Below are positions 2,945-25,236 of a stretch of DNA of 64,000 nucleotides, piece after piece. The notes under the pieces were generated by a model, which was given only the letters and a program-made list of their open reading frames with translations, was not told the origin of the DNA and searched no databases. Numbering within the stretch: position 1 is the first letter of the stretch; every line of letters starts with the position of its first letter. Both the position numbers and the translations under genes were made by a program. This DNA comes from Capsaspora owczarzaki ATCC 30864 (taxonomy: Eukaryota > Opisthokonta > Filasterea), in assembly GCF_000151315.2 (NCBI RefSeq), contig NW_011887300.1, forward strand, positions 325,967-389,966, read 5' to 3'.

Positions 2945-3821
2945 CGCTCTCACTTGGCAGGACGACGTATGTGCGTGGAGCGCTTCAGACCAACAAGACA
3001 AGTCGAGACGACGGTGAGGACGACGGCGAGGACGACGAGGACGACGACGATGCTGGAAATGGTCGCGCTGGACTGGGACTTGGCTTCAATGCATTCGGAG
3101 CCAAACCAGGTGCTGCGGCCGGTTGGACGTCCGGTGGCACTGCTGGAGCTGCTTCTTCAAGTGCGGATCCGGTAGTGAGGACGCACGCGGCTCCATCTGC
3201 AGGAGCAATGCGGGGCGGACTCGGATTTGGAGCGCCCGCTGGACTCGGCTCGTCGTCGTCGTCGTCGTCGGCGTCCGCGTCGGCGTCCAAAGGCAAGAAG
3301 GACAATGCGCAGCCGCAGATCGCCACTTGGGAAAAGTTCACCAAGGGTATCGGCAGCAAATTGCTGAAAAAGTACGGCTACGTGGAGGGCGCAGGCCTCG
3401 GAAACGCGGGTGAAGGCATGGCGGTGCCTTTGGACGTGCAAAAGCGCCAGGGCAAGACCCTCGGTCTCGGTTTTCTGCCAGAGCTGTCCGACCAGCAGCG
3501 GGAGGAAGAGAAGCGACGTGCCAAAATGCGCGGCCAGCCAGGAGCAGACTCGGAATCCGACGACGATTCCGCTCGTTCCTCGAAAGGCAAGCGCGCAGGC
3601 TCGCGTCCCGCTGAAGAAGACGATGAAATATCTGCCGCAACTCGCGAGATGCTTGCGCAGGAAGCAGAGTTTGAGGACGCAGAGGAGCGCGGGGAGCAAC
3701 CCCGATCACGCAAACAGCGCCGACCTGCCGAACCCCACTGGAAAAAAGGAGCTCAACGACAGTCCATGCCGCCGCGCACTGCGACGCAAATCATTGCCAA
3801 CTATGCCGGATCCGGATCACA

Positions 3822-3852
<31 letters not shown>

Positions 3853-5703
3853 GTTATTGTGGACTTGCGTGGCGCTCAACCGGTTGTTCTGACCAACTTG
3901 GCTCAAGGCCAGATGCAGACGTCCGAGTATGGCGCTGACGGCGCGCCATCGCTGTCCGGCCAGATGCCCGAACTGCAGTACAACATAAAGACGATGGTGG
4001 ACACGTTTGCGACCGAGCTCGAATCGTTTGCTTCCAAAGTTCCCATGGAGCAGGCTCACTTGCATCGACTCGCACAAGAGCACAAGTCACTGGCTGCGCT
4101 GCACGCCGAGGACCAGCACACCATGGAGCGCGTGCGGGAGATTAGCGAGATTCTCGCCCGGTGTCATGCGCGCGTGAACACCCTGTCGTCCGTCTCCAAC
4201 AATGGCTCGGTTCTGGAGGCGTTTGCCGGCTCAAAGGGTCCAGCTACAACCAATCTGGTCTTGTCTGTCTTTCACATGCTGCGCGATTCCTTCCCTGAGG
4301 AATACCGCCTCTTCAATCTCGCCCGCATTGCGCTGTCGTACGCCACCCCGGCAGTCTCCGCCATCTTGAACGATTGGCGGCTTTTCGGAGACGATGCGGT
4401 CAAGAATGCCGACAGCAGCCTCTCTTCCGACACCGACCCAACTTCTTCCTCGTATGGCGTTGATTTGGTGCGGAGCTGGAAGCAGCTCTTGAATCTTCCC
4501 CCAACTCGCCCGTCCAGCAGTTCAGATTTGGATGCCGTTGAACAGTCATTATTTGGACGCAGTCACTCGTCAGCACAGCAGTCGCAGCAGCAGCAGCAGC
4601 AGCAACAACATCAACAACAAGTCACGCCTTACGATCGACTCATGTGGGAGGTGTGGGTGCCGCACTTGCGAACGTCCTTAATGCGCTGGTCTCCACGAAC
4701 ATCATCGCTCGAGCACACTGAGCGCCTTGTCCGCGCCCTGACTGCTTGGAGTGATTTAATACCCGAATGGATTGGAGAGAATCTCTGCGATCAGCTCCTT
4801 GTTCCTCGGTTGATTGCCGACGTAGAAAACTGGAACCCGGTGCGCGACACTGTGCCCATCCATTCCTGGCTCTTTCCTTTTCTACCTCTCTTGGGCATGG
4901 GTCGTCTCGGCGTTGCTCTGCGCACCATCCGATTCAAACTTTCTAATGCGCTGGCTGAGTGGACTCCTGATGACGAATCCGCCCTGGCCGTCCTTTCTCC
5001 GTGGCGGACGGTCATGCCCGCCGGCGACTTTGGCGTTTTCCTCATCCGTTCCATCGTGCCCAAGCTCTCCCAGGCCATCCGAGAGATGCCGGTCGATCCG
5101 GCCAACCAGCGCACGGTTGAGCCTGTCGTGTGGCTGGCACGCTGGGTCGATGCTTTCCATGGCAACCTCGAGCCGCTCGTTGGGGTGCTTGAGCGCGAGC
5201 TCTTCCCGCGCTGGCACCAGGCTCTGACCGCGTGGCTCGCAAGCGACGGCAATTACGACGAGATTGCAGAATGGTATCTGGGGTGGCGCGCTCTGCTTCC
5301 GAAGGCCATTCGGGATCACCCAGCCATTTCCGCTCAGCTTACAGTGGCGCTTGATGCCGTCAACCACAAGATTGATCCATCGCGTCCAGCGCCAGCACAG
5401 GCGGCGCAGGCACGCGCCAGAATGGCCCAACAACAGCAACAGCTCGAACAGAAGCGGAAAATGACCGCGCCTGCCTACTCCACCTTGGCTTCTCAAGAGG
5501 CCAGTTTCAGGGACTTGCTCGAGTCGCTGGCAGCTCAGCATGGGCTGCTCTTCATGCCAGCCCAAGGTCGGCGCCAAGACGGCAACCAAGTGTACCAGTT
5601 TGGCCGCGCGCTCTGCTACATTGACCGAGCAGTTGTTTTTGTCAGCGATGGCGGGCGATGGATGCCAACTGCTGTGAGTGAACTCGTGGCCATGGCGAGC
5701 TGA
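2548..5703 (+). CDS. TFIP11: Tuftelin-interacting protein 11 (G-patch spliceosome disassembly factor)
   Basis: Single-exon gene of 1051 residues; animal proteins are about 840, and the excess is low-complexity insertions (poly-Asp, poly-Ser, poly-Gln). The N-terminus has the TIP_N signature ('SFGLSDADL' then 'RGFSKEQAMLGVF') followed by acidic tracts and a KKKKKR basic patch. The G-patch lies at about residues 260-310 (GIGSKLLKKYGYVEGAGLG). A long GCFC-type helical region follows from about 470. The C-terminus ('FRDLLESLAAQHGLLFMP', 'YIDRAVVFV', 'WMPTAVSELV') closely matches TFIP11/STIP. In the family this protein recruits and activates the DEAH helicase DHX15/Prp43 through the G-patch to take apart the intron-lariat spliceosome in the nucleus, which fits an intron-rich genome. 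The start ATG at 2548 is followed directly by the conserved N-terminus. Confidence 0.95.
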
Positions 5704-15345: not shown

Positions 15346-18300
15346 TCACATCCGCGACTCATCACGCGGCAACACACCCTTAGACCACGACGTGGTAGAT
15401 CGCAACATTTGGTCTTGCTGCTGCTCCTCGTCTTCCAGGCCGTTGGCCGCGGCAATCATGGCTGCAATGCTGCTCGACTGGGAGGGGATGTTGGAAACAT
15501 TGGAGACGCCAGAGACGGTTGACGAGACGCTGCTGATGCTGCCAGATCGACGGTGGCGGGGCGTGAGTGAGTGCGGCGACGAGGGCACGTGTGATACGAG
15601 GCTGGCCCCGCCGCTGCCGCTGCTAACGTTAATGTAGCTGCTTCCGCCAGAGACAGAGGAGGTGGTGGAGATGCTCGAGGTGTTCAGGTTGACTGACGAG
15701 GAGGTTGCGGCCACCGACGGCGAGAAAGCTGCGGCAATGCGATCCACAGTGAGGCGGCGCGGGCTTGACAAGACAGTGTCGGCCGTTCTGCCGCTGAATG
15801 CTTGCACCAGCGTCTGCGACTTGCCGCGCAGCAGCTCGTAGTACATTTCAAGGGTGGTTCGCGTCTCGCGCAAAACAACGTCATCCACGGCAATTGGAGG
15901 CCGGTACTCCTCCTCGAGCGAGCCAACAATGACCTCGTATGGCGGACGAATCACGGCGTCGCTCACCAATTGCTTGAGACTGGGCGTAACGGAAGGATCT
16001 GCAAGGACATCCTGCGCCAACAGCGGCCCCTGGCCTCCTCGGTTGGTCGCGTGGTCTGCTTCGGTCGCAGAGCTCTCGTACGGACTGAGCGCTGGGACTA
16101 GGTACGCGCGAGAGACGGAGGGTGGCTGGGTTTGCAGCAATGGCTCACTGTCCCGAGAGCTCGGCCAGCTGGCACGAGAGCGCCGCATCGTCCGTCCAGA
16201 CAGTCCGGTCATGTCGTTTGCGTAGGAGTCCCCAGAGCCGCCCCTGCCGCTGGCTAGGCCGCAGCAAGAGCAGGTAATCCAGCGGAAGAAGCGCTTCCAA
16301 GGAACATAGCGAATGATTCCCGCCAGCAGGCCAATCCCAGACATGAGCCAAATCCAAGCCCAGGTAAAGCTGATTTCACCCAGCTGGGGAAGAATCAAGC
16401 GCAGATCATCGCCGTTGCCGCACCACGGTCCGAGGACAAACGCCAGGCCGCCCAGCACGACGTGAAAGTAGATGCACCACGGGATGTACTGGAGGGCGCG
16501 GAGCGACAGGCGGTGGTCAATCCGGGGAGGGCGCTTGTGGATGCGCAACAGGTTGCGTTTGTCGACCCAATATTGCAGACCCACGGCGAACACGGCAATG
16601 AGCGGCGCCAGCGGCATTTGGAATGCGTACAGCATTGCGACCGACATGTTCACAATGGCGTTGACATAGCGAGCGGCAAACATGATTTCGCGAGGCGCCA
16701 TCCGTTTGTCCAGCTCGGTTTGCGTCAGCGCTGTTCTCGTCGCCAAAAATTCGCGCATCCGTGTCACTGGCATGACAAACTGGATGAGCGAGTTGAACAC
16801 GGCGTTGGAGATGATGGCCGTCAACGCAGCCGACAGCTGCCCGCTGCTCGAGTACCAAAAGATGGATCCAAACTGGCGACGGCTGTTGTGGGTGCCCCAT
16901 TCGCTCACAATCAAGTAGGCGGCAAGAATCGAATAGCCGGAATTGACGTAGCCGGCCAGTAGGAGCTTGGCCAAGGCAGTGTTCTGGAAGCCAGAGTAGG
17001 TGTGATGGCGTTCCCAGCGACCCAAGGCGGTGACGACCGTGGCCAGCACCCAGTTGACAAAGGTGACGACGAGCGCGTTGATTACCTTCGAGCCCACGCC
17101 GCCCAGGTCGACGTGCGACTTGTGATCATCTGTGAGCTCAAAGTACAGCAGGGAGGTGACGCTCGCAAAGCCGGCCAGCACCACAATCCCGCACAGCAAG
17201 GAGGTCACCGAGTTGCGCAAGAGGCGCTGAAACAGCGTGATGTGGAGGTTTTCCCAGATAATGTCGGACGGTTCCGGCGGGGCTTCCAGCTTTGGCCGCA
17301 GGGTCGAGCGAAAGACAAAGCGCGATGGTTTGAAGCCGAAAATGTTGGCTGTCGGGAGTGCGTACGCTGCAGAGCTGCGATCAGCGGAGGTGCGCGCGTT
17401 CGACGACGGCGGGGACATGAGTCCTTCGTGCATGTTTGCGTAGGGACCGCCGGACAGGCTCGAACTGCTACCTCTCGTTAGAAGCGGAGCCTTTGACGCC
17501 AGGCTGGCTTCGTTGTGGGCGGATGACGACGACGACGACGCCAACGCCGACGCGGAGGGGGCAGCAGGGCTGTACGCTCGAAACAGCCAGCTCGTGGCAA
17601 CCCAGTCTTTGAATCGCACCCAAATAGGCTTTTGCATGTGGTCGATGAGGCAGCAAAGCGCGCTATCCGCGCTGCGGAAGGTGACGAAGGCGTATCCGGT
17701 GCAATGGAAGACGCGCCGATGCTTGAGTTCTTCAATCTTGGCATCGATGGCGGCCAGCTCTTCGCGCACTTGGCGAGACTCGCGGTGCGTCAGCGATCGG
17801 AAGGCACACAGAATCTGCGAAAGAAGCCCGCTCTGCGCAACCGGGTCGGAGGTGCCATTCCTTTGCGCAGCTTCGCGAGCCAACGCCGAGCCCAGTTCGA
17901 CGCTCATCTCCTTGTGCTTTTGCATGAGATGCATGACTCGCATCGAGTCGAGCGAAATGGAAACGTGCGCAATGGGCCCCCACTGCGCAAAGTGCTGGGC
18001 GAGTTCTTCCGTGTTGGTGCAGTTGCGTTCCAGGCCCGACACCATCACAGTGTAGTGGCGTGCAGTGAGCATCTCCCGTGCAAACACGGTCGCGCGCACG
18101 GAAATGCGTCGGCGCCACACCACCACGAGCTTGAGGACCATGATGAGCATCACGAGCTCAATGACGACATAGCCGGCGCCTGGCGCGAGGGAGCGGTGGC
18201 CCAGGAACCAGTTGTACGCTGCCTCGAGTTCCGTCTCATTGGTGCTGGTAGAGTCCGAGTCTACCAGATGGTAGTTTGACGCCGCAGGACTAAAACTGGA

Positions 18301-19137
18301 TGTGACGAGACTGACGGGATTCGACGTGTTGGAGCAGTTGCGAATGTTCCAGGTTCCGCCGCCCAGCCCATGGTCAATGTCCGCCCATGATCCCTGAATG
18401 TTGAGCACGACCATCGGGATTGAGTAGAAGAGCGTGACGCAGGTGCCAAGCACAATGCAAAACCACAGAAACTCAAAGAAGAGCGGCACTCCCACGCCCA
18501 GCGACAGGAGCTGTTGCGGCGGTACGCGCAGATTGTATGCCTTCCCATCTGGCTGGCGCACGCGCAACCGATCTGCATTGCTCCGCGCAGTTTCGAGTCG
18601 CGGTCTGTTTTCAAATCACACATACATGTCGGCGATCAAGTGAGCAACGAAGCATAGAAAGGCTCAAAGTGGACTTTCCCTCTACCCCCTGAAATCCCAC
18701 CCCCCCATTCTCAATGGTGATGAATTTCCTCATTGAAAGTGCTCAAACACCCTCAAAGCGAGTCAAGGTTGGGATGATGATTTGAATGGGAGCCAGCGAA
18801 ACGTCACGTCCGCACAGCATGCCACTCAGTTCCAACCAAACATCACCCGACGACGAACTGCGACATATGAAGAAGAGAAGCGCTTGACATGTCCTCAGAG
18901 TCAAAGCGAGAGAGAGAGGAGAGAGAGGAGGTCCAAATCGTACCGGATGTTGGGTGGCTGGGAAGTGCCGCTCGCTGCTGCTGATGATGCCTGCGCCTGC
19001 GACTGCGCCTGTTGTTGGTAATGCTGATGATTGGGCTGTGTTTGTGCTTGTGCTTGTGCTTGCGCTGGTGGTGGCGGATACGGCTGGTAGACGGGTGGCA
19101 GTTGAGACCGCGACTGAGCGTAATCCTCCGACTGCAT
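15346..19137 (-). CDS. TMEM63/CSC1/OSCA-type mechanosensitive cation channel
   Basis: Two exons, 18944-19137 and 15346-18604, joined in phase 2 (donor GTACGA, acceptor AAACAG), give 1150 residues. The first exon has a Pro/Gln/Ala-rich cytosolic or extracellular leader. The large exon holds the N-terminal transmembrane segments (RSN1_TM), the RRM-like cytosolic domain ('YTVMVSGLERNCTNTEEL', 'GYAFVTFRSADSALCCL'), the diagnostic 'PSDIIWENLHIT' motif, and the multi-helix RSN1_7TM (DUF221) pore region ('PLIAVFAVGLQYWVDKRNL'). A Ser-rich tail of about 280 residues follows. In the family these are osmo- or stretch-gated cation channels of the plasma membrane or endomembranes. The large exon has no ATG near its 5' end, which supports the upstream exon; an even earlier non-coding or coding exon cannot be excluded. 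Confidence 0.88.
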
Positions 19138-19619: not shown

Positions 19620-22600
19620 ATGACCTTGTCGCGCGTCTCCAAGGCGGATGCGACTGCGCTGCTGATGGAAAGCGGCTCCGAGGGCATGTACATTCTGCGC
19701 GAGTCCAACACCGAGCCGGGCCTCGTCGTCCTCGCAGTCAGGTACAAAATGGGGCATCAAAGCATCAAAAGCAACAGAGCATCAATGCAAAAACAAGCAG
19801 CAGCCAAAAAGCAAGCTTTTTTTTTTTTTTTTTTTTTTTTTTGGTTGGTGCCTCCTTTGCTTGCCCCTCAACAGACAAGGGCACCTCCCGCATCCACATC
19901 GCCACGACACGCATCTCGGCATTTGGAGTGGCAACTTGCAAACTGCGTGTGCTTCAGGGTCCGCAATCTGCACTCACACAAAGATCAACAGCTGCGACAA
20001 ACCCTGACTCCCCCTTTTTTTATTTTTTTATTTTTATTTTTTATTTTTTATTTTTTATTTTTTATTTTTTATTTCTGAGTATTTTCGATTTCATGTTTCT
20101 CACCTCGCGTTGAAAAATAACAACCGAATTCACAAACTCACCCTTTGAAATTTGGCTGCTACAGAGTTGGACCAAAGGTCGACCAGTACATGATCAAGCC
20201 AGACCCAGCTGGAAATGGCACGTACAAGCTTGGCAAGGTTGCTGGCACGCTCAGCCAAATCATTGAGCATCACCGTCGCACTCCGTTGCAGAATGTGCTC
20301 CTCACCCAGCCGTTGCCGACAGCGGGGCGTCGGCCCCCGATCGCTGCCGCGTAAGCCCCGCCATTTTTTTGTGCCTTGCTTGCTTGTGCGAAACCGTCGC
20401 ACGAAAAGCACAAACCTGTCGTTGCTCATGTTCTGTTGAACTTCCTCCCCAATTCCCAAAATCATGTCATGGACAAATCGTGTCATGGAGCAGAGCGCGA
20501 GCAGAATCTCCAACCACGAGTATTCCAAACCTCCCGTCTGCCGATCAATCGCGCTCGTTCGTTCTCAACGATGTTTCCAAGCGTCCAGTGTAAGGCCCTG
20601 GCTACTGTTCCGAGGACTTGCGTAACCACAAGAGTAGGTCATTCTCACAATCACACAATTTTTTTGTAGTTGGTTCCATGGCGGTCTGTCCAAGGACCAG
20701 GCCGAATCCCTCCTCATGGAAGGCGGTAAAACTGGCTCCTTCTTGGTGCGCACAAGCCCGAACAATCCCGACGAATACGCGCTTGCTCTTCGGTGAGATT
20801 CTGTTTTCCCTTCGACCGAGTATTCAACTTTCGCTTTCCCTAACTTGCAATCCTCTCTCCTTCCCTTCCCTCTCTCCTTTTGCAGCCGCGAGGAAAACGA
20901 CGTCAAACACCTCAAAATCACCTTGACTCCAAACGGCATGTACTCGCTGGGCGACAACCACGGGCCCTTCCCTTCCATCGCGGCGTTGATCGATACCTAC
21001 CGCACCTCTGCCTCGCTCTGGGCTACCAAGCTCGTCGATCCCGTGCCCATGCTTGCTGCAATGAATATCACAGTGTCCGTCATGAAAAGCGGCACCCTGT
21101 TCAACACTGTGCTCCCCAAGGGTGTGCTCCAAGCGCGCATGTACAATGTTGACGAAATGGGCTACTTTTTGCTCTACAAGGTCGCTGTGAAGGACTCTAA
21201 GGAACTTCGCGAGCAGCGTTGGTGTAAGTGTGTTTGCGTTCTTTGTTTTTGAAGCTTTTGCGTTTTTGGCTCACGATTTCACTCATTTTTGTTTTTGTTT
21301 CTGTCTTCTTCTCGACAGTACCCTTCCGCAACATTGTTGAAATCCGACGCGGCACCAACACGCGCACTTTTCTCCAAAACAAGTCGCTGATTTCAGCCCC
21401 TCTCGCTTTCTCCATCTTGTACCGCGATGGCACTGCTGATATTCAATCGCTGGATTTGATTGCATCGACGAACGAAGAGTACGAGTTGTGGCTTGCGGGC
21501 CTGGACTATCTGCTGGGCCAGTCTCGTCGCGCTACAGATCCCTCCAACTGGGAAGAGTTTATTCGCAACGAGTGGCTGGCAATGGGCTTGAACATTGAGA
21601 GCCTTGACAACGAGCGCATTGTCAATCGCACCTTGGAGCTCTTCATCAAGCGCTTGCACACGGGTCTGCCGTCCGACTATTACCGCGTGATGGTCAACCA
21701 GGCGCTTGTCGGCGCCGTCAACCAACCCAACGTGGCCGATCCCAACGCCAAGCTGACGTTCACCGTTTACTCGCGCATGTTTGCGGCGCTGAAGGCGCAA
21801 CGCAGCGATCTCAGCCACCTTTTCCAAAGCTCCTTCCTGAAAATGAACGAGTTTCATCGGTTTTTGGTGGAGCAGCAGCGAGGCGGCGCGCGTGGCAATG
21901 CTGCCACCGGCAGTCTGGCGGGGCTTTCTTCTTCCTCCGCTCAGAACGACCAGTCTCGCGCAGCGATCGGATCCTCGTCGTCCTCCCTCATGGCGCAGTC
22001 CTCAGCCGCGCTCATCACGGAACGCGAAGCCAGCGCGTTGCTGGCCAAGTACGAAACCTCCCCGCTCAACGTCCAGAACAGAGTCCTGTCGCGCCAGGCC
22101 TTCTACCGCTTCTTGCTCTCGCGTGACAATGACATTTTCGACCAGCGCCATCTGTCCGTCTTCCAGGACATGACGCGCCCCCTCTCACAGTACTATATTG
22201 CCACCTCGCACAACACGTCGCTCATTCTCGACACTGCCGCCGTCCCCGAAGTGGCCATCGACGGCTTTATGCGGCTGCTGCTCAGCGGCGTGCGCTGTCT
22301 GCATCTCGAGGTCTATGATGGCGACGTGGAGCCCATCGTGTCCTCGCGCTACGTGATGCCCAGCAAGTCCAAGGCGAGCGTCCCGGGCAGCGTTTCGAGC
22401 GCGAGTGGCAAGCACATGCTTGCCGCGTCCCAGTCGACGGCCGACCCGAACGGCTACGCCGAGTGGAAGCATCTATCTGGCGGCGGCGTCGGCACCGACA
22501 AGCGTGGCAAGGCCGTCTACGTGAGCGTGCCCCTTTCCCAAGTGCTCCAAGTCGTGCTGACTCACGGCTTTGTCGCCTCGCCCTACCCAGTCATCCTCGT

Positions 22601-24343
22601 GGTCATCAACCGCTGCTCGGCGCCCTTCCAGAACAGGATGGCTGATTTGTTCAAGTCCATCCTCGGCGACGGCGTGCTCGCAGCGCCCTTGAGCGAGGCC
22701 ACCGTCGGCAACATTCCCTCTCCGAGCCAGCTCAAGGGTCGCGTGCTCATCATGGCGTCCAAGCAGGTCACCGACACGGACTGGTTTGACGACGACTTTG
22801 ATCTCCAACCAGCCGCACCGCAGGCGCAACCCAATGCTCGAGTTAGTGCAGACGGCAGCCCGCGCATCCTGGTCGAAAATGCCTTTTCAAACCTCGTCTT
22901 CCTTGACCTCAACCGCTTCCAGTCGCTGGCCCGTGGCCGTCGCATGCCCATGTTCGAGGTTCCTGCGATCGACGAGCGTCACTCGACCGAGTTTTTGAGC
23001 GCGGAGTCGTCCGTTGTTGCGCTGCAAGACATTACCCTCCGCAATCTGGTGCACAATCGGCCGTACTCTCGTCGCGACATCATGACCAACATGGACCCCA
23101 TTCCCGCCTGGAATGCCGGCATTCAGATGGTCGGTGTCAACCACTGCTCGCGCGGTCTCGCCGTCAAGTTCCACCAGGCGCGTTTCCGCGTCAACGGCAA
23201 CTGCGGCTACGTACAAAAGCCCAGGTTGCTGACGTCTGGATCCTCCCGGGGCACCTCTTCTGGGGGCAATGCCGGTGTCAAGTTGGTTATTCAGGTAGGG
23301 AGAGCGAGAGAGGGAGCGAGAGTGAGAAGTGGGTCGTTTGTTTGTTTTGGTCTGTTGTGTTGTGTACACCCACACCTCGTTCTCCTCCTGACCCCCCCCC
23401 CTTTCCACCAACCCACAGGTCATCTCTGCGCAGCAATTGCGCCGCCCGACAGGCCCACGATTGGAGCGCCCTTCGACGGCAAACACAAACGACAAGCCGA
23501 TCTCGCCAATGATTGTCGTCGAGACGTGCGGTCAGGCACGCGACTCGATGAAGTTCTCAACGGCCGTCATTCGCGACAACAATGGGTTTGATCCACTGTG
23601 GCAGGCGGACACCAAGTTTGTCTTCAATCTGAACTCGGCCGACTTGACCTTCTTGCGCTTTGCAGCGTACGACGACTCTACTCGCACGCTGCTCGGCCAG
23701 GCCGTCTATCCAGTCACAAGCCTGAACGATGGTAGGTTGCGTTTTTTGTCAGCTCGATGCTGGCTGGTGGTGTTTGTCGTTTTTTTTTTTTTTGGGTTGG
23801 TAGGCTCAATTGTGGATTTTTTTTCTGTGGTTTCACTTTCTGTGCTTCTCTTCAGGATACCGCCACGTCCGATTGTGCGACGACGACAACGAGCCAATTG
23901 ACCAGAGCACCGTTTTCGTGCACATTAGTGTCCGCGAGCTGTCAACGCTGGGCGGCCGCATCGAACTCGCGTTGGACGATCTCATCCAGCACCAGATTGT
24001 CCCCTTCACTGCAGAGTTCCCTTCGCCCAACTTTTTTCTGGGACAGGAGGGTGCCGAACTGTTGGCCGAGCAGTATGGCACCAACGCGCACCTGATGCGC
24101 TTGCTCAAGTCGCTGGAAACAATGAGGACGACCATGCAGCGGTCGCGCACGCTGATTGATGAGATCAACGCCAAGCTGCTTCACTTTGGCTCAACCTTTG
24201 TCAGCTCGACAGACGAGCAAAGCTTCCGCTTCACTTATCACATGATGCCCGAGGGGGCACACAACTTCCGCTTGTGCAACGTGTACGAGTACAGCCCTGC
24301 ACAGGATGTCTACTCGTGGCGTGCGTACTTTTTCCTGTACTAG
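19620..24343 (+). CDS. Tandem-SH2 phospholipase C-like protein, probably catalytically dead
   Basis: Eight exons: 19620-19741, 20165-20350, 20494-20589, 20670-20792, 20886-21223, 21319-23294, 23419-23731 and 23856-24343, with all phases consistent, giving 1213 residues. Domains in order: SH2 (about 1-95, 'YILRES' with the phosphotyrosine-binding Arg), linker, SH2 (about 135-230, 'WFHGGLSKDQAE', 'FLVRTS'), PH (about 240-370, 'LDLIASTNEEYELWLAGL'), degenerate EF-hand region, PLC X box ('ATSHNTS', 'SPYPVIL', 'LPSPEQLKG'-like 'IPSPSQLKG'), Y box ('AWNAGIQMV', 'NGNCGYVQKP') and C2 ('DNNGFDPLW', 'GYRHVRL'). The first catalytic His-Asn is kept, but the E-L-D motif reads H-L-E, the second catalytic His is missing, the SLENH glutamate is Ile and the KGKK lysines are altered. 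It probably binds phosphotyrosine and phosphoinositides as a scaffold. Standard PLC-gamma carries its SH2 domains between X and Y, not at the N-terminus. Confidence 0.9.
19817..19842. repeat. poly(T) tract in intron 1 of the SH2-PLC gene
   Basis: A 26-base T run. The same intron later holds a (T5-6A)n region at about 20015-20073. Confidence 0.9.
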
Positions 24344-24650: not shown

Positions 24651-25236
24651 TTAAGCCTTGACCCGGTCCAGCTTCAAATCAGCGGGGGTGAATGCGTCAG
24701 GGAGAATACGACCAGAAGTTGTGATTTGCGACGAGCCTGCGCAGCATCATGCCCAAATGTTGTCAAGGAGAAGTAGATTGAGTATTTTCATCTCTGAAAC
24801 AACATCCCCTCCACAACACATCTCTCATTTTGGGCTAGTACTGCACACTGACCATCAGGCTTGCAGAGGTGGACGGTAATGTCGAGGCCAAACTCGACGA
24901 TAAATTGCCGGCATGCTCCGCACGGCGAGCAGAACTTGTCTGTCAAGTCCGTCGTGACGCAAATGTCTGTGAACTCACGGAAGCCCTCGCTGACAGCCTT
25001 GACCAGTGCCGTGCGCTCGGCACAGATTGCGAGACCGTAACTCGAGTTTTCGACATTGCAGCCTGCACAAAGTTGGTGTTTGACAAACCACAAACCAAGA
25101 AAAAAAATCACACGTAAATATCAAGAATTGTCAGCTCTTCATCACACAGCGAAAACCATGCTGGGCCAAATGAAGCTCAAAGTAGGAAATCTGATCTTTT
25201 GGTTTGAAACAAACCACCAAAACGCCAGTTTGAAGG

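Follow-up and report, generated by a model that had tools for sequence, protein, structure and literature searches.

Gene structure and domain order

The window analyzed here is a stretch of 64,000 nucleotides from the genome of the filasterean Capsaspora owczarzaki ATCC 30864 (contig NW_011887300.1, forward-strand positions 325,967 to 389,966), and the coordinates given below are those of the window unless another locus is named. At 19620-24343, on the forward strand, it carries a gene with seven coding exons for a protein of 1181 residues, hereafter pseudo-PLC, in which two SH2 domains precede a phospholipase C (PLC) core whose catalytic residues have largely been replaced, followed by a C-terminal tail. 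Judging by its sequence, the protein probably serves as an adaptor in signalling and not as an enzyme.

The gene model rests on an assembled reading frame, a gene finder and codon log-odds. The frame begins with an ATG at 19620 and ends with a stop codon at 24341-24343, exactly the limits drawn in an earlier note on this DNA, and the coding exons 19620-19741, 20165-20350, 20670-20792, 20886-21223, 21319-23294, 23419-23731 and 23856-24343 join into a single open frame of 1181 codons, with introns that are all of the GT-AG type. The codon log-odds of the chosen frame are above zero in all seven exons and those of the two other forward frames are below zero. A gene finder run recovered the same seven exons with a shifted exon 1/2 junction; at this place the junction set by hand is preferred, since with it the SH2 strand takes its usual form (LAVRVGPKVDQYMI). 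For exon 21319-23294 the two tests are in part circular, because the training set of the codon table, long open reading frames (ORFs) from the window and the other loci, included the 787-residue ORF of the pseudo-PLC gene itself.

Exon 20886-21223 holds the end of the second SH2 domain (SH2-2) together with the first half of the PH domain, and the remainder of the PH domain, the EF-hand-like segment and the X and Y boxes lie in the next exon; SH2-2 therefore belongs to the PLC transcript and is inseparable from it unless the PH domain is split. The first SH2 domain (SH2-1) is connected to the rest over two introns, 423 and 319 bases long, of which the first has a weak donor and both have low-scoring acceptors; intron 2, if left unspliced, would lead to an immediate stop (20352-20354). 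An optional in-frame linker exon of 96 nt (32 codons; 20494-20589, forward strand), with a strong donor and a weak acceptor, lies between SH2-1 and SH2-2 outside the preferred model, and an 85-nt alternative in intron 2 was ruled out as it breaks the frame.

A Pfam scan of the spliced protein matched SH2 in two stretches (2.1e-31) and PI-PLC-X in two stretches (1.7e-27). In the order of the protein, and all on the forward strand, the features are SH2-1 (residues 1 to about 90, end approximate; 19620-20311, exons 1-2), SH2-2 (residues 104-182; 20671-21000, exons 3-4), a PH domain (residues 209-323; 21079-21518, interrupted by the intron 21224-21318; PH_12, 1.5e-7), an EF-hand-like segment ahead of the X box (residues 490-532; 22017-22145; EF-hand_like, 1.1e-4), the X box (residues about 538-736; 22161-22757) with an insert rich in Ser, Ala and Gly that was delimited by alignments (residues about 607-656, ends approximate; 22368-22517), the Y box (residues 784-892; 22899-23225; PI-PLC-Y, 1.6e-15), a C2 domain (residues about 909-1045; 23274-23932, interrupted by the introns 23295-23418 and 23732-23855; 5.4e-8 with the region scanned alone) and a C-terminal module (residues 1053-1181; 23954-24340). 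The order SH2-SH2-PH-EF-X-Y-C2 read from the sequence in the earlier note was thereby recovered, with the C-terminal module as an addition. The absence of SH3 reported there was borne out as well, since the scan, whose HMMER output leaves out most hits weaker than about 0.1, gave no SH3; it placed no domain between X and Y, and the SH2 pair lies within residues 1-182.

The C-terminal module, which comprises the last 129 residues, has no Pfam match. It resembles the C-terminus of an open frame (3436-3897) at another locus of the genome, L017 (blastp 2e-12 with this one sequence as the target; 6.3e-4 in the genome search), a match to the open frame at an end that the spliced L017 gene model omits. 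The open frame encodes a PH domain (Pfam 7.1e-10) and proline-rich stretches, and both proteins end one residue past the matching AYF-L. On the simplest reading of this similarity, the common piece would be an undescribed interaction module.

Catalytic and ligand-binding residues

Ten catalytic or substrate-contact columns were compared with those of 12 PLCs, seven from the same genome (L013, one of the paralogues described below, was dropped) and five references copied from alignments with solved chains; residue positions are given in what we take to be PLC-delta1 numbering. Each of the 12 other PLCs keeps all ten columns, whereas pseudo-PLC keeps His311 and Asn312 and differs at the other eight, through E341H, D343E, H356S and E390I in the X box, K438M, and S522A, R549H and Y551R in the Y box. 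In addition, K440, which stands outside the ten-column count, is Ser in two separate alignments. In three alignments the catalytic losses that had been proposed for this protein recurred at each position named, except that the second catalytic His, which is indeed lost, had been placed within the inserted loop and the Ser in its column lies just before it. At this H356 column PIVSSRYVMPSK aligns with PVIYHGYTLTSK without a gap, and no hidden second His was therefore found; more generally, no other part of the X box showed intact catalytic residues in the three alignments, the case in which the proposal of an inactive enzyme would have failed. The insert, about 50 residues long and absent from all eight aligned paralogues, follows directly after the H356 position. 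Its interpretation as an unspliced intron was rejected, as the gene finder keeps it coding and its removal would restore no residue, because it follows the H356 column. These substitutions make it very likely that active PI-PLC catalysis has been lost.

Rewired residues might instead support a different or weak phosphodiesterase activity, or lipid binding. The first His-Asn pair (SHNT) is present and a preserved barrel is predicted, but the second His is changed, as are the Ca2+ ligands E341, D343 and E390 and the headgroup-binding set K438, K440, S522, R549 and Y551. The alignments show no substitute residues, so that we consider such an activity highly improbable. The prediction for the barrel derives from AlphaFold, which was run twice on uninterrupted exon sequence and gave a mean predicted local distance difference test score (pLDDT) of 56.8 for the first model and 58.2 for the X-Y part alone; the 31 best entries in each list of structure matches are eukaryotic PLCs, ahead of bacterial ones, which is the result expected if the X and Y boxes form a eukaryotic PI-PLC barrel. 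It is supportive only, because the aligned paralogue rows push the models towards the PLC fold, and that no other folds appear in these lists carries no weight.

The main functional rival is that pseudo-PLC is a decaying PLC gene, in which catalysis was lost by drift and which serves no dedicated function. Decay would account for the very long branch of the core (2.58 changes per column) and for the change at 23 of the 55 other invariant columns. The remaining 32 of these 55 columns are kept, a higher proportion than among the catalytic columns (Fisher p 0.039); although modest, this difference is what would be expected if the barrel were more constrained than catalysis. The 1181 codons are also open over seven exons with a coding bias in each, an argument that shares the partial circularity of the codon table, and SH2-2 retains its Arg and His. 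Taken with these observations, decay appears unlikely.

The residues of the SH2 pair were compared at positions that we take to be betaB5, betaD4 and alphaA2. Both domains have the betaB5 Arg, as the earlier note had claimed from the motifs YILRES in SH2-1 and FLVRTS in SH2-2. SH2-2 combines it with the betaD4 His (VKHLKI) and the alphaA2 Lys, and is therefore likely to bind phosphotyrosine. In SH2-1 the Arg stands alone, with Gln in place of the betaD4 His (VDQYMI) and the N-terminal Trp missing. The PH domain has no lysines at what are presumably the beta1 positions. In an alignment with four paralogue PH domains and no PLC-delta1 PH row, its Arg in QARMY falls in the same column as an Arg of L011 and L015, which is taken as the PLC-delta Arg40 column. 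The proposed joining of phosphotyrosine and phosphoinositide binding in one protein is supported only in part: SH2-2 keeps its key residues and SH2-1 is atypical, while the PH domain, with a putative counterpart of the Arg through which the PH domain of PRIP (the PLC-related inactive proteins of animals) binds Ins(1,4,5)P3 or PI(4,5)P2 but with no beta1 lysines, may or may not bind lipid. For PLC-delta, R40 is reported to be critical (PMC6726632).

PLC paralogues and the origin of the SH2 pair

The genome (27.46 Mb in 29 contigs) contains nine PLC loci on which the X-model and Y-model searches agree, a number that more diverged loci could escape. One of them, L010, is a PLC-gamma with the order X-SH2-SH2-SH3-Y-C2 in a model with an incomplete N-terminus, and groups with rat PLC-gamma1 and human PLC-gamma2 (support 98/98). 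In three further paralogues the core is preceded by an SH2 or SH2-like domain: L009 (CH-SH2-C1-X-Y-C2 with a weak EF match; G000:C1:224500-232500, reverse strand), L014 (LIM-LIM-LIM-SH2-X-Y-C2; G000:C5:67500-76500, forward strand) and L013 (LIM-SH2-like-X-Y-C2, with the SH2 under the Pfam cut-off at E 0.008; G000:C16:780500-790000, reverse strand). The X boxes of these three keep their catalytic residues, their cores form a clade (100/99) and their SH2 domains group together (90/88). L011, L012 and L015 have the order PH-EF-X-Y-C2, with an additional C2 domain in front in L011 and, at the start of the L015 model, an EAP30 match that may belong to a fused neighbour.

SH2 or SH2-like domains are consequently found in five of the nine loci and lie in front in four. 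Tandem SH2 domains in front and a dead active site are both unique to the pseudo-PLC gene among the nine. The architecture had been regarded as unfamiliar, and within these nine loci this holds for the tandem SH2 pair on a dead core; an N-terminal SH2 on a PLC is not unique in itself, because L009, L013 and L014 have one as well. A literature search returned no paper on this protein by title or abstract among the matches listed, with subscription papers mostly outside its coverage.

Some features of the paralogues and of the neighbouring genes were observed in passing. The SH2 domain of L009 has Tyr at the phosphotyrosine-Arg position, and in a hand alignment the Arg is kept in L014 and replaced by Tyr in L013. 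The Y box of L013 shifts reading frame in mid-domain (about 3480-3800, reverse strand), through either an assembly error or a real frameshift. L016 (G000:C4:2054500-2062000, reverse strand) has N-terminal DEP domains (Pfam 4.3e-51, four stretches). Divergent from the pseudo-PLC gene, at 15349-18615 on the reverse strand, lies a gene that matches anoctamin and PHM7_cyt and, below the cut-off, RSN1_7TM; we take it to be perhaps a CSC1/TMEM63-like channel. Downstream, the reverse strand holds a frame for a cytidine deaminase at 24791-25120 (Pfam 3.3e-12).

The established connection of PLC to phosphotyrosine is through PLC-gamma, which like pseudo-PLC has tandem SH2, PH, EF, X, Y and C2 domains on one chain. 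Unlike in PLC-gamma, where the SH2 pair lies in the X-Y linker, the pair of pseudo-PLC is N-terminal, no SH3 is matched and the catalytic residues are lost. These differences could have arisen by rearrangement of a PLC-gamma, with the SH2 pair moved to the front and the SH3 and split PH domains lost, an origin that is compatible with an adaptor function and that we regard as possible but doubtful. Against solved chains, the full-length protein scores highest with PLC-gamma2, its PH/EF part matches PLC-gamma2 best (9.1e-5), and with PLC-gamma1 chains a single stretch of the alignment covers SH2-1 as well as SH2-2 (query 13-184, up to 52.5 bits); in addition, the row of the SH2 tree most identical to SH2-2 is the N-SH2 of PLC-gamma2 (45%). 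However, a separate PLC-gamma with SH2-SH2-SH3 between X and Y is present in the genome, the X-Y-C2 core alone matches PLC-delta1 (190.7 bits) better than PLC-gamma2 (159.1 bits), and within the genome both SH2 domains match a Src-like gene best, ahead of PLC-gamma.

The highest total SH2 score, 106 bits, belongs to RASA1, which would also speak against PLC-gamma, although both RASA1 stretches fall on SH2-2; since the PLC-gamma1 chains span both domains, RASA1 was dropped as the best match of the pair. Among the matches listed, no single stretch aligns better with SH2-2 than the C-SH2 of RASA1 (63.4 bits), and SH2 precedes PH in both proteins, as seen in a RASA1-like model of this genome (L021). 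RASA1 differs in its order SH2-SH3-SH2-PH-C2-RasGAP and its lack of a PLC core.

Phylogenetic analyses are compatible with several origins. In the best core tree pseudo-PLC groups with PLC-delta1 and L011 (71/74). Seven groupings of the core that include pseudo-PLC were considered, one being that of the best tree, and none of the six tested was rejected at 0.05 in the approximately unbiased test (p-AU 0.254 with PLC-gamma, 0.286 with PLC-delta1 and 0.087 with L009/L013/L014). A single clade of PLC-gamma and L009/L013/L014 was not rejected either (0.14), and SH2-bearing PLCs may have arisen once or several times. Similarly, the best SH2 tree places SH2-2 with the SH2 domains of L009/L013/L014 (40/0), and none of the six other groupings was rejected, including SH2-1 with the N-SH2 of PLC-gamma (0.246), SH2-2 with the N-SH2 (0.298) or the C-SH2 (0.289) of PLC-gamma, and a kinship with RASA1 (0.362). 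The unions required for a rearranged PLC-gamma are thus admitted for both core and SH2 domains, but the free trees place neither with PLC-gamma. As to L009, L013 and L014, these share with pseudo-PLC an SH2 or SH2-like domain ahead of the PLC core; in contrast to it they have a single SH2, CH/C1 or LIM partners, no PH match and intact catalytic residues in the X box, and pseudo-PLC falls outside their clade in the best tree.

A putative phosphotyrosine-directed adaptor

Most work on inactive PLCs concerns animals, whose PLC-related inactive proteins (PRIP) have a PH-EF-X-Y-C2 core; we know of no SH2 domain in PRIP (PLCL1, PLCL2) or in any other inactive animal PLC. PRIP is reported to have high homology to PLC-delta1 and no PLC activity, and it blocks the binding of phosphatidylinositol 4,5-bisphosphate (PIP2) by PLC-delta1 and OCRL1 (PMC6726632). 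Compared with PRIP as described, pseudo-PLC shares a PLC-type core that is very probably inactive, and differs in the loss of eight of ten site residues, the X-box insert, the tandem SH2 domains in front and the extra C-terminal module.

We propose that pseudo-PLC is a phosphotyrosine-directed, PRIP-like pseudo-phospholipase C adaptor, a reading to which we assign a probability of roughly 0.6. SH2-2, perhaps aided by SH2-1, would dock on proteins that are tyrosine-phosphorylated by the organism's own kinases, a role for which the retained residues argue strongly. The dead PH-EF-XY-C2 core may serve as a membrane-facing or protein-binding scaffold, and the protein may compete for phosphotyrosine sites with the genuine PLC-gamma and the remaining SH2-bearing PLCs or, in the manner of PRIP, shield PIP2; by analogy, such scaffolding and competition with active PLCs are plausible. 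The C-terminal module, common to pseudo-PLC and the PH-domain protein of L017, probably binds a common partner.

Several points weigh against an adaptor of this kind. The evidence comes from the sequence of one genome, in which purifying selection is not measurable, and both the changed non-catalytic columns and the long end branch would also fit relaxed constraint. The atypical SH2-1 might be made on its own as a short product, the PH domain lacks the beta1 lysines, and the codon-usage test is partly circular. In addition, the confidence of the AlphaFold models is low, the entry at the head of the first list shows a root-mean-square deviation of 15.5, and the PLC rows steer the models.

A more specific version of the proposed adaptor can be put forward only tentatively. 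It would be a pre-animal pseudo-PLC that tunes the output of the active SH2-PLCs by occupying their phosphotyrosine sites or their PIP2, its SH2 domains having joined the core independently of PLC-gamma and its C-terminus being a new interaction module common to a PH-domain docking protein. In the genome of this one unicellular organism, PLC-gamma stands beside the clade of L009, L013 and L014, whose SH2 or SH2-like domains have LIM, CH or C1 partners, and beside a dead PLC with a tandem SH2 pair; if the transcripts and the binding hold, PLC would be wired to tyrosine signalling in more forms here than in animals. On the same condition, a phosphotyrosine system can give rise from within to a pseudo-PLC regulator. 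Pseudo-PLC is also a candidate antagonist from an organism that has no animal tissues.

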